A DNA stretch of 64,000 bases from Rhodoferax sp. (GTDB taxonomy: Bacteria; Pseudomonadota; Gammaproteobacteria; Burkholderiales; Burkholderiaceae_C), in NCBI RefSeq assembly GCF_028688795.1, contig NZ_JAQTXM010000013.1:62001-126000 (forward strand). Direction: 5' to 3'. How positions within the stretch are numbered: position 1 is the first letter of the stretch; every line of letters starts with the position of its first letter. The notes beneath the pieces were generated by a model. The model had not been told where the DNA came from. It saw nothing but the letters and a program-made list of their open reading frames with translations, and did not search any database. A program made the translations under genes and the position numbers. Shown here in pieces: positions 50,727 through 64,000 of the stretch.

Positions 50727-51626
50727 TCACAAAGGGATGGCGGTCTGCATTTCTGCACACAAGTTGTAAAGCTGTTGTGCTGCGGGTGTGAGCACTGACG
50801 AGCGCCGTTTGATCAGGCCCATCTTGCGTTTAACCACTGGGTCGACCAGCGGCACACTCACCAGCAAAGGGTGATCTGCAGCTGGCATGGCCATGGCGGG
50901 TACAACGGCCACACCCAGCCCGGCTTCAACAAGGCCGATCATTGTTGTGCCATGCCGGGTTTCGTACATGGTCTGGGGTTTGTCTTTGACGCCGGCCATC
51001 GCCTGATCCAGCAATAGTCGGTTGCCTGAAGACTTGTTGGCTGAGATGAAGTCGTATTGCGCCAGTTCTGCCCAGGTGACTTGCGACTTTTTTGCCAAGG
51101 GGTGGTCGCGCCGGCAAGCCGCCACAAAGTGCTCTTCCAGCAGCGGCTCAAAGTCGACATCGTTTTCATGCGAGCCAACAAAGTTCAAACCGAAGTCAGC
51201 CTCACCGCGTGCCACGGCAATCAGGACTTCATTGGCACTGTCATCCATGATCTTGACGCGGATTTTGGGGAAGCGCTGGTGGTAAAGCGCAATCACACCC
51301 GTCAGAAAGTAGTTCACCGCCGAGGGCACACAGGCCACTGTGACCTCGCCCATTCTGGTGGCGGCCACCCCTCGGATTCCGAGCAGGGTGGTGTCGAGCG
51401 CATCAAGTATTTGTCTAAGTTGGCGATCGAAGTCACGCCCCACCGTTGTCAGATTGACGCGGCGGGTGGTGCGATCCAGTAGGCGCACCCCCAGCGCTTC
51501 CTCCAATTTCTCAATGCGTCGGCTGAACGCAGGTTGCGAGATATGGACGGATTCGGCCGCCTTGCGGAAGCTACCCAGTTCAGCCACGGCCTTGAAGGCC
51601 AACAAGTCATTCAGGTCAAAGTTCAC
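50727..51626 (-). CDS. LysR-family regulator of the tricarboxylate cluster
   Basis: The GTG at 51626 gives 299 residues beginning MNFDLNDLLAFKAVAELGSF, the normal place for this family's helix-turn-helix (20-60, ISQPAFSRRIEKLEEALGVRLLDRT). The ATG at 51674 would add 16 residues and would cover the operator at 51649-51671, so it is less likely. The remainder is a LysR substrate-binding domain (about 90-295). It is divergent from the porin and TRAP genes and is the likely inducer-dependent activator of that operon, with a tricarboxylate or a pathway intermediate as effector (inferred). Confidence 0.88.
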   Translation of the reverse strand: MNFDLNDLLAFKAVAELGSFRKAAESVHISQPAFSRRIEKLEEALGVRLLDRTTRRVNLTTVGRDFDRQLRQILDALDTTLLGIRGVAATRMGEVTVACVPSAVNYFLTGVIALYHQRFPKIRVKIMDDSANEVLIAVARGEADFGLNFVGSHENDVDFEPLLEEHFVAACRRDHPLAKKSQVTWAELAQYDFISANKSSGNRLLLDQAMAGVKDKPQTMYETRHGTTMIGLVEAGLGVAVVPAMAMPAADHPLLVSVPLVDPVVKRKMGLIKRRSSVLTPAAQQLYNLCAEMQTAIPL

Positions 51627-51648
51627 TGTCGTCTCGTTATTCAGGTTT

Positions 51649-51671
51649 ATTGATGCGTATTGTGGATCAAT
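51649..51671. promoter_or_regulatory. LysR-type operator, ATTGAT-N11-ATCAAT
   Basis: A perfect 6-base inverted repeat with 11 bases between arms, which is exactly the T-N11-A arrangement bound by LysR-family regulators. It lies 23 bases upstream of the LysR start and 131 upstream of the porin ATG in the divergent promoter region. Confidence 0.6.
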
Positions 51672-51801
51672 CATTCATAAATATGCAATTCACATAAGAA
51701 CCCAAGACAGCGATCATTCACCCCGCGTTTTGCCTTTCTTGACTTTCAAGCGGCAGAACGCCCAATGGCCATCAATTAAAACTATCTGGAAGACAAAATT
51801 C

Positions 51802-52881
51802 ATGAATCACCACCAACACGTCACAAAACTCTGCGCCTCGCTGGCGTTGCTGGCCAGCGCATGCGCCGCCAACGCGCAGAGCACGGTCACTATTTACGGC
51901 ATTGCGGATGCGAGCGTGCGTTATGTGGATGGCCTCAGCGCCAGCAATGCCGCTGCAGTAGGTTCGGCCACTGCGGTCAGCAGCGGTGTCAACAACACCA
52001 GTCGCTTTGGCTTTCGGGGCAGTGAAGACCTTGGCGGCGGCATGGCGGCCATCTTCAATCTGGAATCAGGCATCAACATCGACACCGGCGCGCAGACCAA
52101 TGCCACCAAGTTTTTTGATCGTGCCTCCTACATGGGTCTGAAGGCCAGTTGGGGAACGGTCACGATGGGCCGCCAGACCACCGTACTGGCGGACGCCCTG
52201 AGCCCCGTTGACCCCCTGGGTGTGCGCTTTGCTGGTTTCAATCCCAATGTGGGCATTGCCGCCTTGAGTTCCCACGGGCTTGGCATTGAATATGGCTCTG
52301 CGGGTGATACAAAGGGCTCTTATCGCCAAGATAACTCAGTCAAATATGCAGGCAAGTTCAGCGACCTGACCGTGCGCGCCATGCGTGCTTTTGGTGAGCA
52401 GTCAGGCAACTCGTCTGCCCTGTCTTCTTCAGGTCTGGGTTTTACTTACCAGACCGACAAGGTTGCGGCAACCCTGGGTTATGCCGAATTCGAAAGCACC
52501 ACAGGTCTGCAGCTCAAGGCGTATGTCGGCGGTATCAGCGGAAAGTTGGGCAACAACAAACTGTCCTTGACTTACGGCAGCAACGAAGCCGAAGTGTCGA
52601 GCACCAGCAAAACCAGTTACACAACATTGGGCCTGGGCGGCACCATGCCATTGACTGCCAGCATGGACCTGATCCTTGCCCACTACCGCGTCAACCGCGC
52701 GCGCACGGCAAAAGCGGACGATGGCTACAACCGCACTGTGGCTTTCCTTGAGTACAAACTTTCAAAGCGCACCAAGCTCTACGCTGAGCTGGATCGCACC
52801 AATTGGAAAACCGGTTTTGTGGCTGCGGCACTGCCACAAAGCGCCACTGGCGCGTCGCTGGGTGTGGTTCACAATTTTTGA
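51802..52881 (+). CDS. Gram-negative general porin
   Basis: The ATG at 51802 gives 359 residues: signal peptide ending ACAANAQ, then STVTIYGIADASVRYV and the family segment TSRFGFRGSEDLGGGMAAIFNLESG. The alternating pattern and the C-terminal Phe (GVVHNF) mark a 16-stranded trimeric porin of the Bordetella/Comamonas type. It stands first in the operon that includes the TRAP transporter, so it likely admits the same anionic substrate through the outer membrane. Confidence 0.92.
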   Translation: MNHHQHVTKLCASLALLASACAANAQSTVTIYGIADASVRYVDGLSASNAAAVGSATAVSSGVNNTSRFGFRGSEDLGGGMAAIFNLESGINIDTGAQTNATKFFDRASYMGLKASWGTVTMGRQTTVLADALSPVDPLGVRFAGFNPNVGIAALSSHGLGIEYGSAGDTKGSYRQDNSVKYAGKFSDLTVRAMRAFGEQSGNSSALSSSGLGFTYQTDKVAATLGYAEFESTTGLQLKAYVGGISGKLGNNKLSLTYGSNEAEVSSTSKTSYTTLGLGGTMPLTASMDLILAHYRVNRARTAKADDGYNRTVAFLEYKLSKRTKLYAELDRTNWKTGFVAAALPQSATGASLGVVHNF

Positions 52882-52940
52882 CAGTCGCAATGCATCATTT
52901 CAACGAATAATTTTATCCCCCAAAAATTCAGGAGACAAAC

Positions 52941-53972
52941 ATGACTTTCAACATCAACCGCCGCGTCGCAAACCGGGCGATCACCACGCTGACAGGCCTG
53001 GTCGCCATGACCGCTTTTTGTTTGCCAGCGACTGTGTTCGCGCAAACGCCCATCGTGATCAAGTTTTCTCACGTCGCAGCCATTGACACACCCAAAGGGC
53101 AGGCGGCCGAGTATTTCAAGAAGATTGTCGAAGAGCGCACCAACGGGCAAGTCAAGGTAGAGGTCTTTGCCAACAGCTCTTTGTTCAAGGACAAGGAAGA
53201 GCTCGAAGCCCTCCAAATGGGCACGGTGCAAATGCTGGCGCCCGTGCCTGGCAAATTTGGCCCACTGGGGGTCAAGGAATTCGAGGTGTTTGACCTGCCC
53301 TACATCTTCAAGGACATTGACGCTGTGCATCGCTTTGCACGCGGCCCGGGCGGCTCAGGTTTATTGAAAAAGCTGGAGTCTCGTGGCGTGACCGGACTGG
53401 CCTACTGGGACAACGGTTTTCGCGTGATGAGCGCCAACAAGCCGATCCACGTCCCCGCCGACATGAAGGGGCTGAAGATGCGCATCAACTCATCCAAGGT
53501 TAATGCCGCCATCATGAAGTCTGCTGGCGCACAGCCACAGAGTCTGGCATTTTCTGAGGTGTATCAGGCACTGCAAACCGGCGTGGTGGATGGCACCGAG
53601 GGTCCTTTGTCCAACTTGTACACGCAAAAGCAGTACGAGGTTCAAAAACACGTGACCTTGAGCTACCACACCATCAGCAACTACGTGGTGGTTGCCAACA
53701 AGAAGTTCTGGGATGGCTTGCCAGCCAACATCCGCACCACCCTTGAAGTAGCCATCAAAGATGCGACAGCGTTCAATGACAGCGTTGCCGAAAAAGACGA
53801 GGCCAGCTCGCTGGCTGCCATCAAGGCATCGGGCAAATCCACCGTGTATGTGCCCACCGCAGCAGAGCAGGAAGCCTGGGTCAAAGCCATGTTGCCGGTA
53901 CAGACCGAAATGGCTGACCGAGTAGGCGGCAAGGCCTTCATCGACTCGGTTCGTGCAGCGTCCGCGAACTAA
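52941..53972 (+). CDS. dctP: TRAP transporter solute-binding protein DctP
   Basis: A 343-residue periplasmic protein with a signal peptide ending TVFA. DctP features: IKFSHVAAIDTPKGQAAEYFKKIVEE, EVFANSSLFKDKEELEALQMG, and GLKMRINSSKVNAAIMKSAGAQP, whose Arg is the conserved carboxylate-binding residue. Specificity in this family is for C4- or larger carboxylates; from the downstream genes it should be a tricarballylate, aconitate, itaconate or related acid. An AGGAGA site precedes the start. Confidence 0.92.
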   Translation: MTFNINRRVANRAITTLTGLVAMTAFCLPATVFAQTPIVIKFSHVAAIDTPKGQAAEYFKKIVEERTNGQVKVEVFANSSLFKDKEELEALQMGTVQMLAPVPGKFGPLGVKEFEVFDLPYIFKDIDAVHRFARGPGGSGLLKKLESRGVTGLAYWDNGFRVMSANKPIHVPADMKGLKMRINSSKVNAAIMKSAGAQPQSLAFSEVYQALQTGVVDGTEGPLSNLYTQKQYEVQKHVTLSYHTISNYVVVANKKFWDGLPANIRTTLEVAIKDATAFNDSVAEKDEASSLAAIKASGKSTVYVPTAAEQEAWVKAMLPVQTEMADRVGGKAFIDSVRAASAN

Positions 53973-54059
53973 GCGCTGATTCACACCCTCATTGCCTGAG
54001 CAGTCCTCTTGTAGGACAGCCAGGCATGACCACGCCTGAATGGCGCATGGAGATACCTC

Positions 54060-54719
54060 ATGAAATTTCTTGACCGACTCGAAGAATGGCTGATTGCATT
54101 CCTCATTTCTGGCGCCACACTGGTGATTTTTGCCGCAGTGGTTCATCGTTTTCTGGCGTCCTGGAATATTCCGGTCGTGCAGGACCTGGCCTTGCAAATC
54201 GACATGACTTGGGCGCAAGAACTGTGCATCATCATGTTTGTCTGGATGGCCAAGTTTGGCGCGGCTTATGGCGTGCGCACCGGCATTCACGTGGGCGTGG
54301 ATGTACTGATCAATCGGCTCGGTGACAGCGCGCGCAGCCGCTTTGTGCTGTTTGGGTTGCTGTCCGGCGCACTTTTTACTTGCATCGTTGCGGTGCTTGG
54401 GGTGCGTTTTATCTGGGAAAACGGTGCGCACTACGCCTTCATGCATGCGCTGGGCCAAGCCTCACCCGAGCTGTTTCCCGGCCCCACCACCCCCGATCTG
54501 GAGTGGCAAACCTGGATCGTGTACTCGGCCATTCCGCTGGGTACCGCCTTGATGTGTTTTCGATTCCTGCAGGTTGCGTACACGTTTGCCCGCACTGGTG
54601 AATTGCCGCACCACGACCACAGCCATGTGGAGGGTTTGGACGATGTCGAGATCACCGACGAATTCCACCCGCATGAAGCACACACCTCACACCCAGGCAA
54701 CGCCAAAGGGAGCAAATAA
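54060..54719 (+). CDS. dctQ: TRAP transporter small permease DctQ with His-rich tail
   Basis: A 219-residue protein with four membrane helices and the DctQ pattern RLEEWLIAFLISGATLVIFAAVV, VQDLALQIDMTWAQELCIIMFVWMAKFGAAYGVRTG. The last 50 residues are cytoplasmic, acidic and His-rich (HHDHSHVEGLDD...EFHPHEAHTSHPG), which is longer than usual for DctQ and could bind metal. It precedes dctM by two bases. Confidence 0.9.
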   Translation: MKFLDRLEEWLIAFLISGATLVIFAAVVHRFLASWNIPVVQDLALQIDMTWAQELCIIMFVWMAKFGAAYGVRTGIHVGVDVLINRLGDSARSRFVLFGLLSGALFTCIVAVLGVRFIWENGAHYAFMHALGQASPELFPGPTTPDLEWQTWIVYSAIPLGTALMCFRFLQVAYTFARTGELPHHDHSHVEGLDDVEITDEFHPHEAHTSHPGNAKGSK

Positions 54720-54721
54720 CC

Positions 54722-56005
54722 ATGAGCACCGCTGTCATTTTGTTTTTGCTGGTCGCGCTCATGCTGACCGGCATGCCGATCTCCATCTCGCTGGGGTTGA
54801 CGGTTCTGTCATTCCTTTACCTGTTCACCGAGGTGCCGATTGAGTCGGTGGCATTGAAGTTGTTCACCGGCATCGAGAAGTTCGAGATCATGGCGATTCC
54901 GTTCTTTATTCTGGCTGGCAACTTTTTAACGCACGGGGGTGTGGCCCGGCGCATGATCAACTTTGCGACCTCCATGGTCGGCCATTTTTACGGTGGCCTG
55001 GGGCTGTCGGGGGTGGTGGCTTGTGCCTTGTTTGCCGCCATTTCGGGCTCATCGCCTGCCACCGTGGTGGCGATTGGCTCGATCTTGCTTCCAGCCATGG
55101 TCAAGGCCGGGTATCCGATGAAGTTTGGCGCCGGTGTGGTGACCACAGCCGGTGGCTTGGGCATTTTGATTCCGCCGTCGATTGCGATGATCATTTACGC
55201 GGTGGCCACCAACTCGTCGATTGGCGCGCTGTTCATGGCTGGGGTGATTCCCGGCATGGTGCTGGCCTTCTTGCTCGGTGCCACCACCTGGTATGTGGCG
55301 CGTAAAAACAACTACCCACGTCAGAAAAAGGCCAGTTGGGCTGAACGCTGGACGGCGCTGCGCGAAGCCATTTGGGGTGTGCTGCTGGTGTTTGTCGTGA
55401 TGGGGGGCATCTATTCAGGGGTCTTTACGCCCACCGAAGCAGCAGCAGTGGCGGCGGTCTACGCGTTTGTGATTGCGATTTTTGTCTACAAGGACATGCA
55501 GCTCAAAGACGTCACCAAGGTGCTGATCTCGTCGGCCAACATGAGCGCCATGTTGCTCTACATCATCACCAATGCGGCACTGTTCTCGTTTTTGATGTCC
55601 TACCAGCATGTGCCCGAAGAAATGGCTGGCTGGATGTTGTCTCAGGGGCTGGGGCCGATCGGGTTCCTGTTGATTGCCAACTTGTTGTTACTGGCTGCGG
55701 GCAACTTCATGGAACCGTCCTCCATCATCCTGATCCTGGCCCCCATCCTGTTTCCGATTGCCATCAAGTTGGGCATCGACCCGATCCACTTCGGCATCAT
55801 CATGGTGGTGAACATGGAAATCGGCATGTGCCACCCCCCGGTGGGGTTGAACCTGTACGTGGCGTCGGGCATCACCAAGATGGGCATCACCGAACTCACG
55901 GTGGCCGTCTGGCCCTGGCTGCTGACCATGCTGGCCTTCCTGGTACTGGTCACCTACTGGTCGCCACTGACCCTGTGGTTGCCAAAAACACTGGGAATGA
56001 TGTAA
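54722..56005 (+). CDS. dctM: TRAP transporter large permease DctM
   Basis: A 427-residue protein with about twelve helices: LFLLVALMLTGMPISISLGLTVLS, the ALFAAISGSSPATVVAIGSILLPAM motif, TTAGGLGILIPPSIAMIIYAV, GVFTPTEAAAVAAVYA and the C-terminal GMCHPPVGLNLYVASGI. Together with DctP and DctQ it imports organic acid driven by a sodium gradient. Confidence 0.95.
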   Translation: MSTAVILFLLVALMLTGMPISISLGLTVLSFLYLFTEVPIESVALKLFTGIEKFEIMAIPFFILAGNFLTHGGVARRMINFATSMVGHFYGGLGLSGVVACALFAAISGSSPATVVAIGSILLPAMVKAGYPMKFGAGVVTTAGGLGILIPPSIAMIIYAVATNSSIGALFMAGVIPGMVLAFLLGATTWYVARKNNYPRQKKASWAERWTALREAIWGVLLVFVVMGGIYSGVFTPTEAAAVAAVYAFVIAIFVYKDMQLKDVTKVLISSANMSAMLLYIITNAALFSFLMSYQHVPEEMAGWMLSQGLGPIGFLLIANLLLLAAGNFMEPSSIILILAPILFPIAIKLGIDPIHFGIIMVVNMEIGMCHPPVGLNLYVASGITKMGITELTVAVWPWLLTMLAFLVLVTYWSPLTLWLPKTLGMM

Positions 56006-56012
56006 CAAATCG

Positions 56013-56058
56013 TGCTCTAGCGCTTATGTAATAAGCGCTAGCAGCTCACTTTTTTATC
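56013..56058 (-). repeat. Dispersed AT-rich palindromic repeat, near-consensus copy
   Basis: Minus strand GAGCTGCTAGCGCTTATTAC then ATAAGCGCTAGAGC; the core AGCGCTTAT/ATAAGCGCT is a perfect palindrome. It fills the gap between dctM and the hydratase gene, ending at the latter's AGGAAA ribosome site. Confidence 0.75.
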
Positions 56059-56071
56059 AGGAAACAACCCC

Positions 56072-56917
56072 ATGAACCTCACTGACTGGATTGGCCGCAA
56101 CGAACGTGTGTGCGACACGGCCACTCCCACCCCCTACGCCGCGCTGTCGGCCACCTTTGACCGCGAAGCCACTCGTCCGCAAGTCGGCACGCCGCTGCCC
56201 CCGCTGTGGCACTGGTTGTACTTCTTGCCGCTGTATCGCCAATCCGAGATTGGTGCCGACGGCCATGCCAAGCGCGGTGGTTTCCTGCCCCCGGTGCCAC
56301 TTCCCCGGCGCATGTGGGCGGGCAGCCAGTTCAGCTTTCACCAGCCGTTGCGCATTGGCGACGCGCTGGAACGCACCTCGACCATTGCGGATGTGTCCGA
56401 GAAATCCGGCCGTACCGGCAAGCTGGTGTTTGTCAAGGTGCGCCACGAAATTCGCCGCGAAGGTGAGTCCGAGATCGCGCTCACCGAGTTTCATGACATC
56501 GTTTACCGCGAAGCCGCCAAGCCAGACGATGTGGCCCCGCCACCGAAAGCCGCACCGGCCACGGCCACTTGGGAGAAGAAGTGGGTGCCCGACGACGTGC
56601 TGCTGTTTCGCTACTCGGCTCTGACCTTCAACGGCCACCGCATCCACTACGACCGCAAATACGTGACCGAGGTCGAGGGCTATCCCGGCCTGATCGTGCA
56701 CGGCCCGATGGTGGCCACGCTGTTGCTGGACTTGTTGCGCCACCAGATGCCCGAGGCACAGGTGCTGAGCTACGAGTTCCGCGCCGTGCGCCCGGTGTTT
56801 GACATCAACCCTTTCTTTGTCTGCGGCGAGCCATCGGCTGACGGCAAAACCATCCATCTGTGGGCCAAAGACCATGAAGGTTGGCTGACCATGGATGCCA
56901 CGGCGGTCATCGCCTAA
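56072..56917 (+). CDS. MaoC-type hydratase, candidate itaconyl-CoA hydratase
   Basis: A 281-residue double-hotdog protein: MNLTDWIGRNERVCDTATPTPYAALSATFD resembles the mesaconyl-C4-CoA hydratase and itaconyl-CoA hydratase branch, with WHWLYFLPLYRQSEIGADGHAKRGGFLPPVPLPRRMWAGS (typical HTD2/MaoC layout) and a C-terminal hotdog motif YSALTFNGHRIHYDRKYVTEVEGYPGLIVHGP that carries the catalytic Asp/His. It hydrates an unsaturated dicarboxylyl-CoA. Placed before a CoA-transferase and a CitE lyase, it fits Ich of the itaconate pathway. Alternatives are mesaconyl-CoA and other C4/C5 enoyl-CoA substrates. Confidence 0.85.
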   Translation: MNLTDWIGRNERVCDTATPTPYAALSATFDREATRPQVGTPLPPLWHWLYFLPLYRQSEIGADGHAKRGGFLPPVPLPRRMWAGSQFSFHQPLRIGDALERTSTIADVSEKSGRTGKLVFVKVRHEIRREGESEIALTEFHDIVYREAAKPDDVAPPPKAAPATATWEKKWVPDDVLLFRYSALTFNGHRIHYDRKYVTEVEGYPGLIVHGPMVATLLLDLLRHQMPEAQVLSYEFRAVRPVFDINPFFVCGEPSADGKTIHLWAKDHEGWLTMDATAVIA

Positions 56918-56926
56918 GGAGTCAAC

Positions 56927-58108
56927 ATGCAACCTCTCAAAGGCATCACCGTGGTGACCCTGGAGCATGCCATTGCGGCACCGTTTGCCACCCGCCAGCT
57001 GGCCGATATGGGTGCACGTGTCATCAAGATCGAGCGCCCTGGCGTCGGCGACTTTGCCCGTGGCTACGACAACCGGGTGCGTGGCATTGCCTCGCACTTT
57101 GTCTGGACCAACCGCAGCAAGGAAAGCCTGACGCTCGATGTCAAACACCCCGAAGCGCAAAAAATCCTCAAACGCATCATCGAAGAAGATGCCGACGTGG
57201 TGGTGCAAAACCTGGCCCCCGGGGCTGCTGCTCGCCTGGGCCTGTCGTATGAAGCCCTGAGCGCGGTCAAACCCGAAATCATCGTTTGCGACATTTCGGG
57301 TTATGGCGACAACGGCCCGTACCGCGACAAAAAAGCTTACGACCTTTTGATCCAGAGCGAGGCCGGTTTTGTGTCTGTCACCGGTACCGAAGACACACCG
57401 TCCAAGGCCGGGCCGTCAATTGCCGACATCGCTGCGGGCATGTACGCCTATACCAACATCCTGGCAGCGCTGATGCACCGCCAGCAAACCGGCGAAGGCC
57501 AGCACATCGATATTTCGATGCTCGAAGCCCTCACCGAGTGGATGGGTTACCCGCTGTACTACAGCCTGGATGGCGCCCCACCACCCAAACGCACCGGCGC
57601 CAGCCACGCCACCATTTACCCCTACGGCCCGTTCCCCGCCGGTGACGGCAAAACCGTGATGCTGGGGCTGCAGAACGAGCGCGAGTGGAAGGCCTTTTGT
57701 GAGCAGGTGATGCAGCAGCCTGAGCTGGCCACAGACGAGCGTTTTGCCAGTAACCCCAAGCGGGTGGCCCAACGCGCCGCGCTGTACGCGCTGATCGTGC
57801 AGGCCTTCGCCAGCCTGAGCGCAGCACAGGTGGTGCAGCGTCTGGAAGCCGCGCAAATTGCCAATGCCCAGGTCAACACCATGGCCGAAGTCTGGGCGCA
57901 CCCGCAGCTTCAGGCACGCGGCCGTTGGACCTCGGTGGATACCTCGGTGGGCAGTGTGCCGGCCCTGTTGCCGCCAGGTTCATGGACCAAAGGGGCGCCG
58001 CGCATGGATGCTGTGCCCGCGCTGGGTCAGCATACCGACACCATCCTGACCGAGCTGGGCTACGGCGCCGAACAACTGGCCACCTTGCGCGCCGAAGGGG
58101 CGGTGTGA
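56927..58108 (+). CDS. Class III CoA-transferase, candidate itaconate CoA-transferase
   Basis: A 393-residue CaiB/BaiF protein with the start LKGITVVTLEHAIAAPFATRQLADMGARVIKIERPGVGDFARGYDN, catalytic Asp near 170 in KAYDLLIQSEAG, and GEGQHIDISMLEALTEWMGYPLYY. In this family CoA is moved from succinyl-CoA or another donor to a free carboxylic acid. Position between the hydratase and the CitE-type lyase fits itaconate activation (Ict). Its stop overlaps a possible GTG start of the next gene. Confidence 0.88.
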   Translation: MQPLKGITVVTLEHAIAAPFATRQLADMGARVIKIERPGVGDFARGYDNRVRGIASHFVWTNRSKESLTLDVKHPEAQKILKRIIEEDADVVVQNLAPGAAARLGLSYEALSAVKPEIIVCDISGYGDNGPYRDKKAYDLLIQSEAGFVSVTGTEDTPSKAGPSIADIAAGMYAYTNILAALMHRQQTGEGQHIDISMLEALTEWMGYPLYYSLDGAPPPKRTGASHATIYPYGPFPAGDGKTVMLGLQNEREWKAFCEQVMQQPELATDERFASNPKRVAQRAALYALIVQAFASLSAAQVVQRLEAAQIANAQVNTMAEVWAHPQLQARGRWTSVDTSVGSVPALLPPGSWTKGAPRMDAVPALGQHTDTILTELGYGAEQLATLRAEGAV

Positions 58109-58113
58109 GCACC

Positions 58114-58950
58114 ATGAACGCCACCCAAGCCCTCACTTACCTGTTTGTGCCAGGCAACCGGCCCGAGCGTTTTGCCAAGGCCTTGGCCAGTGGTGCGGAC
58201 CGGGTGATTCTGGATCTGGAAGATGCTGTTGCAACCGCCGACAAAGCCCATGCACGCGAGTCCATCGCCAGTTGGGTAGCAAGCTTGGCGAGCAACGATG
58301 TGGACCGCTTGCTGGTTCGTATCAACGATGTGACCAGTCCTTGTCATCTTGATGATGTTTTATGGCTGCAGACCACATGCATAAAGCACAGCATGCTATC
58401 AAAATGTGAAACAACTGAACAAGTGGCAAGTGTCCTGGCCCAAATGCCACCCGGCTCCCATGTGTTGCCCCTGATTGAAACGGTGCGCGGCGTGTTGGCT
58501 GCATCGGCAATTGCCGAAGCATCCAACGTTTCGCGGCTGGCTTTTGGTTCCTTGGACTACCTGCTTGATCTGGACCTGCCCGGCCCCGGCTTTGCGCTGG
58601 ATGCGGCAGCGCTTGCCATCGCCATGGCCTCACGCGCCGCCAACCTGCCACCCCCCGTGGCCGGGGTCACGCCCGAGCTGGATGCGGGTCAGGTGCAGAG
58701 TGATCTGGCCCATGCCCGGGCTTTGGGTTATGGCGCCAAGATGTGTATTCATCCGATGCAAGTCGCGGTGGTGCGCGAGGCCTTCACGCCCGACGCACCA
58801 ACTCTCGCCTGGGCGCAGCGTGTGCTCACCCAATGGCAGCAATCCAACGGGGCGGGTGTCATCCAGGTCGACGGCAAGATGGTCGACAAACCGGTGCTGC
58901 TACGCGCCGAACGTATTCTGGCCTCGGCAGGCCCATTTCAATCTCTTTAA
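58114..58950 (+). CDS. CitE-type lyase, candidate citramalyl-CoA lyase
   Basis: From the ATG at 58114 the protein has 278 residues (a GTG nine bases earlier overlaps the previous stop). The HpcH/HpaI-CitE fold is shown by LFVPGNRPERFAKALASGADRVILDLEDAV, RINDV, LPLIETVRGVLAA and AFGSLDYLLDLDLP (the metal and substrate residues) and GYGAKMCIHPMQVAVVREAF. It would cleave (S)-citramalyl-CoA to acetyl-CoA and pyruvate (Ccl). Alternatives are malyl-CoA or citryl-CoA lyase activity. The segment at about residues 82-98 is encoded by a repeat copy in place of the usual more conserved stretch. Confidence 0.87.
   Translation: MNATQALTYLFVPGNRPERFAKALASGADRVILDLEDAVATADKAHARESIASWVASLASNDVDRLLVRINDVTSPCHLDDVLWLQTTCIKHSMLSKCETTEQVASVLAQMPPGSHVLPLIETVRGVLAASAIAEASNVSRLAFGSLDYLLDLDLPGPGFALDAAALAIAMASRAANLPPPVAGVTPELDAGQVQSDLAHARALGYGAKMCIHPMQVAVVREAFTPDAPTLAWAQRVLTQWQQSNGAGVIQVDGKMVDKPVLLRAERILASAGPFQSL
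58357..58406 (-). repeat. Dispersed AT-rich repeat inside the CitE-type gene
   Basis: Minus strand TTTTGATAGCATGCTGTGCT then TTATGCATGTGGTCTGCAGCC matches the repeat (TTTTGATAGCTGCTTGCGCT, AAGGGCTGCAGCC). In the plus frame it encodes WLQTTCIKHSMLS, keeping the protein in frame. Confidence 0.55.
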
Positions 58951-58972
58951 CTTTTACAGACAGGGAAACCTC

Positions 58973-60325
58973 ATGGCCTCCACCATCATTGACTCACGGA
59001 TTTTTGGCGACATGTTCAGCGACGCACGTATGCGTGATGTCTGGTCAGACGAAAACCGCACCGCCAAATACCTCGATATCGAACGCGCCCTGGCCAAAGT
59101 GCAGGGCGAACTGGGCATCATCCCCAAAGAGGCCGCCGACGAGATCGTGAAACACTGCGAACTGTCCATGATCGACTGGGACAAGCTCAAGGCCAAAACC
59201 GAGCAGATTGGTTACCCCATCATCGCGGTGGTGAACCAGATCAACGCCAACTGCCGCGACGGCCTGGGCGAGTATTGCCACTGGGGTGCCACCACGCAAG
59301 ACATTACCGACACCGCGGCTGTTTTGCAAATGCGCGAAGGCCTGGCGCTGGTCGAGCAAGACCTGACCGACATTTCTGACGCTCTGGCCACCTTGGCCAA
59401 GACCTACCGCGACACCCCCGTCATTGGCCGCAGCAACCTGCAGCAGGCCACACCCATCACCTTTGGCTACAAGATGGCCAGCATTCTGGCGGGCATTGAA
59501 CGCCACCGCGAGCGCTTGAGCCAGCTCAAGCCGCGTGTGTTGATGGGTGAGTTTGGCGGCGCCTCCGGCACGCTGTCGTCGCTGGAAAAAGGCGCCATGG
59601 AAACCCAGGCTGGCTTGATGAAAGAGCTGGGGCTGGCGCAACCGCTGATTTCCTGGCACACGGTGCGCGACACCATTGCCGAAGTGGGCGCCTTCCTGGG
59701 CTTGGTCGGTGGGTCCCTCGGCAAGATCGCCATGGACGTGAAGCTGCTGATGCAGACCGAAGTGGGTGAGGTGTTTGAGCCCTATGCCCCAGGGCGCGGC
59801 TCGTCTTCCACCATGCCGCAAAAACGCAACCCGATCTCCTGCCTGTACATCCACGCTAACGTGTCGGTGGCGCGCCAACACGCTGCCGCCCTGATGGATG
59901 CCATGGTGGCTGACCATGAGCGTTCCACCGGCCCGTGGGAAATTGAATGGGTGTCGCTGCCAGAAATTTTCTGCCTGATGTCGGGCGCATTGAAGCAAAC
60001 CAAGTTTGTGCTGCAAGGCCTGGAGGTGGATGCCGCGCGCATGCGCGCCAACATGGACATCACCAACGGACTGGTGATGTCAGAAGCCGTGATGATGGGT
60101 CTTGGTCCCTACATCGGCCGCGAATACGCCCACGATCTGGTGTACGACCTGTGCCGTCAGGCCTTGAAAGAGAACCGGCCGCTGATCGACATTCTGGACG
60201 CGCACCCCGAGATCAACAAACATGTGACCCGCGCCCAATTGGAGGCCATGTGTGACCCAATCAACCACCTCGGCCAGGCCGGTGTGATGGTCGACCGGGT
60301 ACTGGCCGCGCGCCGGGGAGCCTGA
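58973..60325 (+). CDS. Fumarase/aspartase-superfamily lyase, candidate trans-aconitate decarboxylase
   Basis: The ATG at 58973 gives 450 residues (a longer upstream frame is the CitE region out of frame). Superfamily landmarks: HWGATTQDITDTAAVLQ, GRSNLQQATPITFGYK, GEFGGASGTLSS and the signature GRGSSSTMPQKRNPISC. It is closest in style to 3-carboxy-cis,cis-muconate cycloisomerase (PcaB/CMLE) and adenylosuccinate lyase. No protocatechuate genes lie nearby. Tad1 of Ustilago, a trans-aconitate decarboxylase, belongs to the same CMLE branch. Between a PrpF-type isomerase and itaconyl-CoA genes, this role fits well. Alternative: addition-elimination on another polycarboxylate. Confidence 0.8.
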   Translation: MASTIIDSRIFGDMFSDARMRDVWSDENRTAKYLDIERALAKVQGELGIIPKEAADEIVKHCELSMIDWDKLKAKTEQIGYPIIAVVNQINANCRDGLGEYCHWGATTQDITDTAAVLQMREGLALVEQDLTDISDALATLAKTYRDTPVIGRSNLQQATPITFGYKMASILAGIERHRERLSQLKPRVLMGEFGGASGTLSSLEKGAMETQAGLMKELGLAQPLISWHTVRDTIAEVGAFLGLVGGSLGKIAMDVKLLMQTEVGEVFEPYAPGRGSSSTMPQKRNPISCLYIHANVSVARQHAAALMDAMVADHERSTGPWEIEWVSLPEIFCLMSGALKQTKFVLQGLEVDAARMRANMDITNGLVMSEAVMMGLGPYIGREYAHDLVYDLCRQALKENRPLIDILDAHPEINKHVTRAQLEAMCDPINHLGQAGVMVDRVLAARRGA

Positions 60326-60331
60326 CCCACC

Positions 60332-61801
60332 ATGTCCGCCATGCCTAACCCTGACAAACAAACCACCGTGGATGTGCTGGTGATTGGTGGCGGCAACGCT
60401 GCCCTGTGTGCTGCGCTGATGGCCCGCGAGGCGGGTGCCAGTGTGCTGCTGCTGGAGTCTGCGCCCAAAGAATGGCGCGGCGGCAACTCGGCCCACACCC
60501 GCAACCTGCGTTGCATGCACGACGCGCCGCAAGACGTGCTGGTGGATGCCTATTCTGAAGAAGAGTTCTGGCAAGACCTGCTCAAAGTCACCGGTGGCCT
60601 GACCAACGAGCAGCTGGCCCGGCGCGTGATCCGCGACTCCAGCACCTGCCGCCCGTGGATGCGCAGCCACGGCGTGCACTTTCAGCCCTCACTCTCGGGC
60701 GCCTTACATACCGCCCGCACCAACGCCTTCTTCATGGGCGGTGGCAAAGCGCTGGTCAACGCTTACTTCCGCAGCGCGGAGAAGCTGGGGGTGCAGGTGC
60801 GCTATCAATCACCGGTCAACCGGCTCGAAATCAAGAACGGCCACTTTGTCGCCGCCCATGTGGAGGCCACTGGCCCGGATGGGCGCGTGCATTCCGAGCG
60901 CATCACGGCCCGCGCCTGTGTGCTGGCGGCCGGCGGCTTCGAGTCCAACCGCGCCTGGCTGCGCGAAGCCTGGGGCACCAATGAGCGGGGCGAAACCCCG
61001 TCCGACAACTTTTTGATTCGCGGCACCCAATTCAACCAGGGGGTGCTGCTGCGCCACCTGCTGAACGACCACGGGGCCGATGCGATTGGCGACCCCACGC
61101 AAGCCCACATGGTGGCCATTGACGCGCGTGCGCCGCTGTATGACGGCGGCATTTGCACCCGCATCGACTGCGTCTCACTGGGTGTGGTGGTGAACCGGGA
61201 TGCCGAGCGTTTTTACGACGAGGGAGAAGACTTTTGGCCCAAGCGCTACGCCATCTGGGGGCGGCTGGTGGCGCAGCAACCGGGGCAAACCGCTTATTCG
61301 ATCATTGATGCCAAAGCCATTGGCCGCTTCATGCCACCGGTGTTTCCCGGGGTCAAGGCCAACACACTGCAAGAGCTGGCGAACCAACTTGGTCTGGACA
61401 GCAACACCTTCATGCAAACGCTCAACGACTACAACAACGCCTGCCAAGCTGGCACGTTTGACCACACGGCGCTGGACAACTGCCACACCCAAGGCATCTT
61501 GCCCGCCAAGACCCACTGGGCCAGGCCCATCGACACCGCGCCGTTTTACGCCTACGCGCTGCGACCGGGTGTGACTTTTACCTACCTGGGTCTCAAGACC
61601 GATGAAACTTCAGCCGTGCGATTCAATGATGTGCCCAGCGACAACCTGTTTGTGGCCGGCGAAATGATGGCTGGCAATGTGCTGGGCAAGGGTTACACAG
61701 CCGGTGTCGGCATGTCGATTGGTACGGCTTTTGGCCGTATAGCCGGTATCCAATCTGCGCAAGCAGCTATTCAATCAGGAGCAAATCATGCGCGTGCTTG
61801 A
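60332..61801 (+). CDS. tcuA: FAD-dependent tricarballylate dehydrogenase TcuA
   Basis: A 489-residue flavoprotein of the fumarate-reductase/succinate-dehydrogenase type: [30 protein letters not shown] dinucleotide-binding site, [22 protein letters not shown], and the C-terminal FAD contact [34 protein letters not shown]. TcuA of Salmonella oxidises tricarballylate to cis-aconitate and passes electrons to TcuB. It overlaps tcuB by 14 bases. The last 15 residues come from a repeat copy (61733-61780). Confidence 0.9.
61733..61780 (-). repeat. Dispersed AT-rich repeat forming the TcuA C-terminus
   Basis: Minus strand TTGAATAGCTGCTTGCGCAG then ATTGGATACCGGCTATACGGCC matches the repeat (GATAGCTGCTTGCGC, ATAAGGGCTATAGCC). 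It encodes [15 protein letters not shown] at the end of TcuA and lies just before the tcuB start. Confidence 0.55.
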
Positions 61802-62960
61802 GACCCTGATCCAGGATGCCCGGCAACTCGCCGCAGGCCACGGTACAGCGTCCCCGGCGGTGACCGAGGTGGCGCGGCAAATGCAGATTTGCAACGCCTG
61901 CCGTTACTGCGAGGGTTTTTGTGCCGTGTTCCCGGCCATGACGCGGCGGCTGGAATTCGGCGCCGCCGACATTCATTACCTCGCCAACCTGTGCCACAAC
62001 TGTGGCGCCTGCCTGCACGCCTGCCAGTACGCGCCGCCGCATGAATTTGCGGTGAACGTGCCACAAGCGATGGCGAAGGTCCGCGGTGAGACTTATGTGG
62101 CCTACGCCTGGCCTGCTGCGTTGGGCAAGCTTTACCAACGCAACGCTTTAACGCTGTCACTCGCGCTGGCGGCTGGGCTGGCGCTGTTTCTGGTGTTGGC
62201 TCTGGCTCTGAACGGCAACCTGTGGGGTGGGCAGCTGTCGGGCAACTTCTACAACTTGTTCCCGCACAACCTGCTGGTGTCGATGTTTGCGCCGGTCTTT
62301 TTGTGGGCGGTGCTGGCCCTGGGCATTGGTGTGACGCGCTTCCTTCGCGATGTCTCACCCGCGACCACCGGCCAGCCGATTGCGGGTGGCGATGCCCTAC
62401 AAGCCACACATGATGTGCTCAAGCTCAAGTACTTGGACGGCGGTCACGGTGAGGGTTGCCACAACGAAGACGATGCCTACACCCTGTCACGCAGCCGGGC
62501 ACACCACCTGACCTTTTATGGCTTCATGCTGTGTTTTGCCGCCACCAGCCTGGCCACGGTTTACCACTATGCCTTTGGCTGGCATGCGCCGTATGACCTG
62601 CCGAGCTTGCCCAAGGTGCTGGGGGTTGTGGGCGGTGTCAGTCTGCTGCTGGGCACGGCAGGTCTGCTCAGGCTGAAGTTGCGCCGCCATCCCCTGCACG
62701 GTGATGCCGCCCAGAAACCAATGGACTACGGTTTTATTGCGCTGCTGTTTTTGACTAGCGCCACCGGCTTGTTGCTCTGGCTGGCGCGTGGCACACCTGC
62801 TTTGGCGCTGCTGCTGGCGTTGCACCTGGGCGTGGTGATGGCCTTGTTTGCCACCTTGCCCTATGGCAAGTTTGCCCATGGCATTTTCCGCACGGCGTCC
62901 CTGCTGCGCTACGCCGTCGAAAAACGCCAGCCCGGTACCCTGGCGCTGGGAGACGACTGA
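61788..62960 (+). CDS. tcuB: Iron-sulfur/haem membrane protein TcuB
   Basis: A 390-residue protein with two ferredoxin-type clusters in the N-terminal 90 residues ([15 protein letters not shown] and [15 protein letters not shown], eight Cys) and about six membrane helices with several His residues in the rest. TcuB (CitB family) re-oxidises the TcuA flavin and passes the electrons to the quinone pool. AGGAGC precedes the start within the tcuA end. The pair shows that the substrate is oxidised at the membrane. Confidence 0.92.
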
Positions 62961-62961
62961 C

Positions 62962-64000
62962 ATGACGCTGTCCATTCCTTGCGTGCTGATGCGCGCGGGC
63001 ACCTCACGTGGCCCGTTCTTTCTGCGTGACTGGTTGCCCGAAGGTGATGAGGCGCGCAACCAGGCGCTGATTGGTGCCATTGGGGCCTCCGACCCGCTAC
63101 AACTCGATGGTCTGGGCGGCGGCAGCACACTCAACAGCAAGGTGGCCATCGTTTCCAAATCCACCCAGTCGGATTGCGACCTGGACTACCTGTTTGCCCA
63201 GGTCGGTGTCGGCCACCAGTCGGTAGATACCCGGCCTAACTGCGGCAACATGTTGTCGGGTGTGGTGCCATTCGCCATCGACCAAGGCTTGATCCCGGCG
63301 CAAGATGGCAGCACCACTGCCCGTGTCTTCAACGTCAACACCGCATCGCGCATTGACGTGACCGTGTGTACACCCGGTGGCAAGGTCACTTATGAGGGAG
63401 ATGCACGTATTGACGGTGTGGCTGGCACCGCCGCGCCTGTGTTGTTGAATTTTCTGGACGCCTGGGGTTCCGTCACGGGACAGCTGTTTCCCACCGGGCA
63501 ACGCATTGATGTGATGGATGGACTGGCCGTGACCTGCATCGATGCGGCGATGCCCCTGATGATTCTGCGCGCCAGCGACCTGGGCTTGAGCGGGCGCGAA
63601 CGGCCCGCCGAACTTGACGCCAACACGGCACTGTTTACGCGCTTGGAATCCCTTCGCCTGCAAGCGGGTGTGCGCATGGGTTTGGGTGATGTGTCCAACA
63701 GCGTGGTGCCCAAGCCGGTGCTGGTGAGCGCTGGCGATGCACCCAACAGCATCACCTCGCGTTATTTCACACCGCGCAGATGCCATGCGTCGCACGCGGT
63801 GACCGGTGCCATCGGCGTGGCCACCGCGTTTGCCTTACCCGGCACAGTGGCCAGTGGTGCCCACATGATGCCGGGGCGCCATGCCTTGGTGGTGTTGCAC
63901 CCGGCGGGTCAAATCGACGTCGAGGTTGAGCTGCAGGGCGAGGGACAGCAAGCTGCGCTGCAAAGCGCGGCCCTGGTGCGCACCGTGCGCAAAATCATGC
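62962..64000 (+). CDS. PrpF-family isomerase, candidate aconitate delta-isomerase (3' end outside window)
   Basis: The frame is open from the ATG at 62962 to the last base (346 residues seen; the family has about 390). PrpF features: start IPCVLMRAGTSRGPFFLRDWLPEG, Lys60 in LGGGSTLNSKVAIV and Cys94 in RPNCGNMLSGVVPFAI, both in the substrate pocket, and PAQDGSTTARVFNVNT. PrpF proteins isomerise methylaconitates, 4-oxalomesaconate or, in Ustilago Adi1, cis-aconitate to trans-aconitate. The start is one base after the tcuB stop. Next to TcuA, which makes cis-aconitate, the Adi1-type reaction is the simplest assignment. Confidence 0.85.
   Translation, partial: MTLSIPCVLMRAGTSRGPFFLRDWLPEGDEARNQALIGAIGASDPLQLDGLGGGSTLNSKVAIVSKSTQSDCDLDYLFAQVGVGHQSVDTRPNCGNMLSGVVPFAIDQGLIPAQDGSTTARVFNVNTASRIDVTVCTPGGKVTYEGDARIDGVAGTAAPVLLNFLDAWGSVTGQLFPTGQRIDVMDGLAVTCIDAAMPLMILRASDLGLSGRERPAELDANTALFTRLESLRLQAGVRMGLGDVSNSVVPKPVLVSAGDAPNSITSRYFTPRRCHASHAVTGAIGVATAFALPGTVASGAHMMPGRHALVVLHPAGQIDVEVELQGEGQQAALQSAALVRTVRKIM

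Follow-up and report, generated by a model that had tools for sequence, protein, structure and literature searches.

Gene Content and Layout of the Locus

The subject of this analysis is a gene cluster within a 64,000-nucleotide stretch of Rhodoferax sp. DNA (contig NZ_JAQTXM010000013.1, positions 62,001 to 126,000; the window), which probably encodes a catabolic route for C6 tricarboxylates by way of itaconate and which includes a lyase related to Tad1 of Ustilago maydis. The contig that holds the window measures 129 kb and the genome 5.0 Mb, and the closest matches of the lyase are found in metagenome-assembled genomes (MAGs) and isolates of the Comamonadaceae. Eleven genes, from a porin to a PrpF-family gene, form a single co-directional run on the plus strand that begins at 51802 and continues beyond the window end. 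The run opens with a Gram-negative porin (51802..52881; Pfam Porin_4), a presumed point of outer-membrane entry whose start, an ATG near 51802 preceding a signal-peptide-like stretch, was picked by eye. It continues with the components of a tripartite ATP-independent periplasmic (TRAP) transporter, namely a DctP-type solute-binding protein (52941..53972) with DctP and IctP as its relatives in the PDB, the small permease DctQ (54060..54719; Pfam DctQ) and the large permease DctM (54722..56005; 514 bits, cut-off 268). These are followed by a MaoC-type hydratase (56072..56917), a class III coenzyme A (CoA)-transferase of the CaiB type (56927..58108; Pfam CoA_transf_3, 374 bits) and a CitE-type lyase (58105..58950), for which the roles of itaconyl-CoA hydratase (Ich), itaconate CoA-transferase (Ict) and (S)-citramalyl-CoA lyase (Ccl), respectively, are proposed. 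The Tad1-type lyase (58973..60325), a proposed trans-aconitate decarboxylase, comes next, and the run closes with the flavin adenine dinucleotide (FAD)-dependent tricarballylate dehydrogenase TcuA (60332..61801; NCBIfam, 766 bits, cut-off 369), its 4Fe-4S membrane electron carrier TcuB (61788..62960; NCBIfam, 685 bits, cut-off 524) and a 677-residue PrpF-family isomerase that, by structure matches, is fused to a TctC/Bug domain (62962..64000 and onward). Intergenic gaps do not exceed 87 bases from DctP onward or 66 bases from DctQ onward, and two pairs overlap. TcuA and TcuB share 14 bases; CitE may begin at GTG 58105, which would make it overlap CaiB by 4 bases, or at ATG 58114, either codon lying downstream of the point where its longer open frame opens.

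The original prediction for this DNA had placed these genes in one cluster, and every gene that it named was found on the plus strand in the order given. PrpF is likewise present, although the gene is not complete in the window, as it crosses the window end at base 64000 and reaches contig position 126995 (L002:13962-15995). The further statement that each enzyme occurs once holds for the Ich-like and Ccl-like proteins, with one match each in the genome at E <= 0.001 and both in the operon, and for the Tad-type lyase, whose next relative in the genome is 24% identical; of PrpF, one unfused paralogue lies elsewhere in the genome.

Affinity of the Lyase to Ustilago Tad1

In a PDB sequence search with the lyase, Ustilago Tad1 ranked first of 91 distinct matched sequences (544 bits), followed by 3c8t (462 bits) and PcaB (379 bits for 1re5, and 344), and the alignment to Tad1 is free of gaps over 437 residues at 56.5% identity. 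RTHLQ is the motif of carbon-nitrogen (C-N) lyases in this superfamily. Two trees, one of 63 lyases and one of 34, unite the clade of the window's lyase with Tad1 in one branch (100/98 support in both), and PcaB and the clade carrying the RTHLQ motif (the THLQ clade) fall outside it. Approximately unbiased (AU) tests reject two alternatives, one that joins Tad1 to the THLQ clade (p 0.0027) and one that joins it to PcaB (p 0.0064). A long-branch artefact was considered, as Tad1 had joined the long Komagataeibacter sequence L120 in the first tree, and was rejected because Tad1 stays in the clade once L120 is removed.

Individual residues agree with this placement. When 86 close sequences, among them that of the window, 20 mid sequences and 14 sequences of the PcaB clade were compared by column, 25 alignment columns proved to be common to Tad1 and at least 97% of the close sequences, yet were shared by no more than 15% of the mid or PcaB-clade sequences. 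Among them are S154-N155, in place of which TH is found in 19/20 mid and TW in 14/14 PcaB-clade sequences, and S277, where 19/20 mid sequences have A and 14/14 PcaB-clade sequences have G; the sole mid exception at both S277 and N155 is L120, which groups with Tad1. By alignment, lyase S277 corresponds to Tad1 S320 and lyase R317 to Tad1 R360, and these are the residues named in the PDB titles Tad1_S320A and Tad1-R360A with trans-aconitate. R317 is common to all clades, S277 is Tad-specific, and S154, N155, S277 and R317 are retained in 42/42 loci of the family sample described below. For an AlphaFold model of the lyase (predicted local distance difference test, pLDDT, 84.7, falling below 50 at residues 1-3 and in both motif loops), the top 11 matches in Foldseek are all chains of Tad1. 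The original prediction had named grouping with PcaB or a C-N lyase as the outcome that would speak against it, and the lyase groups with Tad1 instead; the equivalents of S320 and R360 are kept, and the model of the lyase matches Tad1 structures first.

A separate observation concerns L120 itself (L120:9001-10422), a plasmid-borne lyase that lies in an insertion sequence-rich stretch and carries the Tad1 signature residues, with none of the itaconate genes around it.

It is possible to read the lyase as acting on some other substrate, whether as a C-N lyase, as a cycloisomerase like PcaB or on another tricarboxylate. Its best NCBIfam names are 3-carboxy-cis,cis-muconate cycloisomerase and adenylosuccinate lyase, and of two PcaB models it scores 509 bits on one (cut-off 595) and 352.4 on TIGR02426 (cut-off 355.75), missing the latter by some 3 bits. 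CitE is missing from some related loci, and a 2025 paper on Cupriavidus necator took what is probably the same neighbourhood for "a different pathway". However, the lyase lies below every specific NCBIfam cut-off, whereas 5/5 checked PcaB-clade sequences pass both PcaB models. Four THLQ-clade sequences that were checked score on TIGR02426 much as the lyase does, three within 4 bits of the cut-off (L098 lies 1 bit above it and L121 4 bits) and one 8 bits short of it, and 0/4 pass PRK09053. The trees and AU tests, together with the SN that replaces the TH or TW of the other clades as in Tad1, reject PcaB or C-N lyase identity, and the gene neighbourhood of the lyase is shared by 0/24 control lyases. 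A different substrate is thus very unlikely. That the lyase is of the Tad1 type is well supported, and its proposed chemistry is the decarboxylation of trans-aconitate.

Conservation of the Neighborhood in Other Genomes

A contig scan confirmed 249 relatives of the lyase, of which the best 80 of 249, at least 85% identical and with titles mostly from Burkholderiales, were used. MaoC was present in 67 of these 80 loci, CaiB in 63, CitE in 56, PrpF in 43 and TcuA in 17, and slightly altered thresholds on the same loci gave nearly the same counts (68, 63, 56, 44 and 17). Where at least 3.5 kb of upstream sequence was available, MaoC and CaiB accompanied the lyase in 60/69 loci, and all three of MaoC, CaiB and CitE in 51/69. 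By comparison, none of MaoC, CaiB, CitE, TcuA, TcuB or PrpF was found near any of 24/24 control lyases (19 of the THLQ clade and 5 of the PcaB clade), a difference with a Fisher p of 3.5e-15 that is not corrected for the relatedness of the genomes. Linkage of the lyase with itaconate genes by chance or lineage was rejected on this contrast (60/69 Tad-clade loci against 0/24 control loci). Within the family of the window, a Tad-clade lyase (E <= 1e-160) occurs in 43/299 genomes, the window's included, and the 42 other loci have MaoC in 38, CaiB in 37, CitE in 29, PrpF in 26 and TcuA in 3.

The composition of these loci varies. The full window-like set, with TRAP genes, TcuAB, PrpF and all three itaconate genes, is found in L003, L006, L020, L022 and L176. 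Azospirillum plasmids carry an unfused PrpF, DctA, Ich, Ict and the lyase, with no CitE found, and a Bradyrhizobium plasmid carries DctA, Ich, Ict, Ccl and the lyase, with no PrpF found. A CitE relative (43-49% identity) exists elsewhere in 9/10 searched genomes that have none near the lyase, the tenth being a small MAG in which none was found. The Cupriavidus locus L218 (G685:C56) has a CitE relative about 1.2 kb away from TcuA, on a separate contig from the Ich-Ict-lyase cluster, as if one pathway were split over two loci. A module of varying completeness is present across the Comamonadaceae and in Cupriavidus, Azospirillum and Bradyrhizobium. PrpF, Ich, Ict, Ccl and Tad make up its widespread core, of which the full set occurs in only some of the loci, and TcuAB is a lineage-specific addition.

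A neighborhood of this kind has probably been reported before. PMC12290011 describes a C. necator neighborhood with a second Ich, a CoA-transferase and an "adenylosuccinate lyase family protein" but no Ccl homologue, and suggests a different pathway for it. This protein is probably a Tad-type lyase, because the Cupriavidus loci L033, L044 and L117 have MaoC and the lyase (with CaiB in 2/3) and no nearby CitE.

The Proposed Itaconate Enzymes

The hydratase has two PDB matches at E <= 1e-5, each at 248 bits: 8khg bears the name itaconyl-CoA hydratase, 8huc that of a MaoC_dehydrat_N domain-containing protein. In NCBIfam the hydratase has no match. The best PDB matches of CitE are 9nzb and 8khl (176 bits), named acyl-CoA lyase beta chain, and its best NCBIfam model is RipC_Ccl at 139 bits against a cut-off of 375. 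These solved relatives of MaoC and CitE are probably Ich and Ccl of Pseudomonas aeruginosa, judging from a 2024 structural study of those two proteins that appears in the reference list of PMC12599236. For CaiB, the best NCBIfam model is succinate-glutarate CoA-transferase (273 bits, cut-off 750). Of the enzymes of the itaconate pathway, Ich and Ccl alone are specific to it, according to PMC12290011.

The PrpF::Bug Fusion Protein

In the operon PrpF, residues 4-353 match structures of YbhH, LigU and PrpF, and residues 375-671 match Bug/TctC solute-binding proteins. By eye, the start of this PrpF::Bug protein shows no signal peptide, and the Bug part should therefore be cytosolic. The fusion stands in a single frame in 40/47 loci with a PrpF match, the window's own included; of the remaining seven, L022 and L042 break off where the sequence covered for them ends, L004, L024 and L027 have only distant matches (36-38%), and the PrpF of Azospirillum L118 and L124 is unfused. 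In the family sample it is present in all 26 PrpF loci, one with a stop, and full-length single matches number 66, the window's copy among them and some genomes counted twice, of which one (L210) has a stop. Across 26 sequences K60, C94 and many residues of the Bug domain are invariant; by offset, K60 and C94 are the equivalents of LigU K66 and C100, residues mutated in PDB entries. On this recurrence in one frame, with invariant residues in both domains, an assembly artefact or a decaying fusion was rejected. A structure model (pLDDT 75, predicted template modelling score 0.52) gives no domain packing. The fusion is kept in Comamonadaceae and Cupriavidus loci, and an annotated Variovorax record (L126) names it 4-oxalomesaconate tautomerase. 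No fusion of PrpF with a tripartite-tricarboxylate protein is reported in the open-access literature searched, as far as the available texts go.

The second PrpF of the genome, unfused and 49% identical, scores higher on the tautomerase model of NCBIfam (527 bits) than the operon copy. Its locus (G000:C11, about 71300-83700; L228) contains TRAP genes, PobA (4-hydroxybenzoate 3-monooxygenase) and an amidohydrolase, with LigB 9 kb on, and is probably a protocatechuate 4,5-cleavage locus of this genome; no protocatechuate or gallate genes neighbor PrpF in the operon. As the unfused PrpF fits the tautomerase role by its neighbors, the operon PrpF would be free for another function. A PrpF was crystallised with trans-aconitate according to the title of PDB 2pw0, and Geiser et al. 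give an oxalomesaconate tautomerase as the nearest homologue of Adi1, the PrpF-family aconitate isomerase of U. maydis. We propose that the PrpF part is a cis/trans-aconitate isomerase, as suggested by its family membership and conserved catalytic lysine and cysteine.

Proposed Tricarballylate Oxidation, Transport, and Regulation

TcuAB oxidises tricarballylate to cis-aconitate. Both genes are adjacent in the operon, and PrpF accompanies TcuA in 15 of the 17 related loci that have it. Among 14 searched genomes without TcuA beside the lyase, 9 have TcuAB elsewhere. Given the low number of loci with TcuAB, the core substrate is probably aconitate, with tricarballylate as an entry particular to certain lineages.

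Two alternative arrangements of these enzymes may be considered. In the first, TcuAB and PrpF would deliver cis-aconitate to aconitase and the tricarboxylic acid (TCA) cycle, and the lyase, Ict, Ich and Ccl would form a separate itaconate or overflow module. This would match what has been published on bacterial use of trans-aconitate, the TarA/TarB route of Bacillus (PMC11495376), and the position of TcuAB away from the lyase in 9/14 genomes is in keeping with it. However, a module for itaconate only would have no need of a decarboxylase, so that the lyase's position beside Ich and Ict in 60/69 loci counts against such a separation, and this arrangement is unlikely. In the second, the lyase would prefer cis-aconitate, PrpF would run from trans to cis, and TcuAB would feed the lyase directly, with the rest unchanged. 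TcuAB does yield cis-aconitate, and the pairing of TcuA with PrpF in 15 of 17 loci would fit. However, Tad1, the closest characterised relative, is named for trans-aconitate in the route reported by Geiser et al., and its R360A crystal contains trans-aconitate by PDB title, making a preference for the cis isomer quite unlikely.

DctP resembles C4-dicarboxylate binders and IctP. With residues assigned by spacing to the IctP numbering in PMC12599236, it retains K41, K94, R169, F192, N213 and Y236 and differs by S91V, Q171N, N209G and V234S; N171, G209 and S234 were found in four relatives, all those whose DctP was read. These changes in the binding site suggest a ligand other than C4-dicarboxylates and are weak evidence for a tricarboxylate. 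Upstream of the operon, and divergent from it, lies a LysR-type regulator on the minus strand (50727..51674; Pfam LysR_substrate and HTH_1), which is found at 45% identity or more in 60/80 related loci and which probably senses the substrate of the operon.

A Proposed Model for Tricarboxylate Catabolism via Itaconate

Taken together, the gene content of the operon, the Tad1 affinity and residues of the lyase and the conserved neighborhood point to a catabolic route for C6 tricarboxylates via itaconate, a reading that we consider quite likely and in which reactions, transport substrate and regulation are deduced from sequence. This model proposes that substrates would be taken up through the porin and the TRAP transporter, whereupon tricarballylate would be oxidised to cis-aconitate by TcuAB. 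The PrpF part of PrpF::Bug would interconvert cis- and trans-aconitate, and the Tad1-type lyase would then convert trans-aconitate to itaconate and CO2. Itaconate could be activated by Ict, the resulting itaconyl-CoA hydrated by Ich to (S)-citramalyl-CoA, and this cleaved by Ccl to pyruvate and acetyl-CoA. Plant-derived trans-aconitate may enter straight at the lyase. Aconitate would be the common entry, and TcuAB may extend the route to tricarballylate in the lineage of the window and in some others. The route from tricarballylate through aconitate to itaconate that the original prediction had drawn is therefore well supported by the lyase and the neighborhoods, apart from TcuAB, which, at 17/80 loci, is not part of the core.

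Several observations weigh against this model. The two locus samples share 12 loci and come from related genomes. CitE was not found nearby in 16/69 loci, four of the 69 (L048, L053, L074 and L078) have none of Ich, Ict and Ccl nearby, and L120 carries the Tad signature outside any itaconate gene context. CaiB and CitE lie under every specific NCBIfam cut-off, and the CoA-transferase sequence indicates class III only, with nothing specific to itaconate, its specificity not being readable from sequence. NCBIfam places the PrpF part above the cut-off for 4-oxalomesaconate tautomerase (483 against 440 bits), and the lyase misses TIGR02426 only narrowly. TcuAB is confined to the minority of loci noted above, with no match at E <= 1e-60 in 5/14 genomes that lack adjacent TcuA, and its product cis-aconitate could instead reach the TCA cycle through aconitase.

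Relation to Known Systems

The closest parallel is the itaconate cluster of U. maydis, in which enzymes of the same two families, Adi1 (PrpF family) and Tad1, lead from cis-aconitate to itaconate. However, that cluster makes and exports itaconate, whereas the operon adds Ict, Ich and Ccl, which may consume it, as well as TcuAB and uptake genes, and its PrpF carries a Bug domain; Adi1 is likened here by family. The itaconate (methylsuccinate) cluster of P. aeruginosa and C. necator (ict-ich-ccl, mcd, msi, IctPQM) shares with the operon Ich- and Ccl-like genes, a CoA-transferase and a TRAP transporter, but the operon is without an Mcd or Msi (MmgE/PrpD) gene and adds the Tad-type lyase, TcuAB and PrpF::Bug. 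TcuA and TcuB, both over their cut-offs, recall TcuABC of Salmonella, in place of whose TcuC the operon has TRAP and porin genes, and the proposed fate of the product is toward itaconate, not only aconitase. TarRAB of Bacillus (PMC11495376) resembles the operon in its proposed substrate and its aconitate isomerase step; the operon differs in its decarboxylative branch, LysR regulator, TRAP transporter and Bug domain, and has no major facilitator superfamily importer among its genes. PcaB has superfamily and fold in common with the lyase but belongs to a separate clade, with TW and G (14/14 PcaB-clade sequences) at the motif positions where the lyase has SN and S.

PMC11495376 describes bacterial use of trans-aconitate by isomerisation, and a word search found neither "itaconate" nor "Tad1" in its text. 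A bacterial Tad1 homologue, or a bacterial catabolic route from aconitate to itaconate, is likewise not reported in the open-access literature searched, within the texts accessible. As far as these searches show, both the PrpF::Bug protein and bacterial Tad1-type lyases linked with the catabolism of itaconate are new within that literature. If the model is correct, it would provide a decarboxylative, itaconate-based bacterial route for aconitate and tricarballylate beside the published isomerisation into the TCA cycle, a testable function for a lyase that public records call adenylosuccinate lyase family or PcaB, and a probable explanation of the Cupriavidus neighborhood that the itaconate field set aside. 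Putative bacterial trans-aconitate decarboxylases may also be candidates for itaconate production. Trans-aconitate is a plant acid of sugarcane and sorghum (PMC8871043) and inhibits aconitase (PMC8050072), and in view of this inhibition a route around aconitase would make physiological sense.

The model may further serve as a pointer to where fungal Tad1 came from. In trees with PcaB as outgroup, Tad1 sits among bacterial sequences; because a single fungal sequence was included, a bacterial source is suggested, not more. It is possible, and we put this forward tentatively, that the "fungal" trans-aconitate route is bacterial in origin, as a widespread catabolic module from aconitate through itaconate to pyruvate and acetyl-CoA gated by a new kind of protein, a cytosolic aconitate isomerase fused to a tricarboxylate-binding Bug domain, from which Ustilago Tad1, and perhaps Adi1, may have been recruited.

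Downstream of the operon, on the opposite strand, lies a gene for a PGA_cap (capsule synthesis-like) protein (L002:16069-17055).

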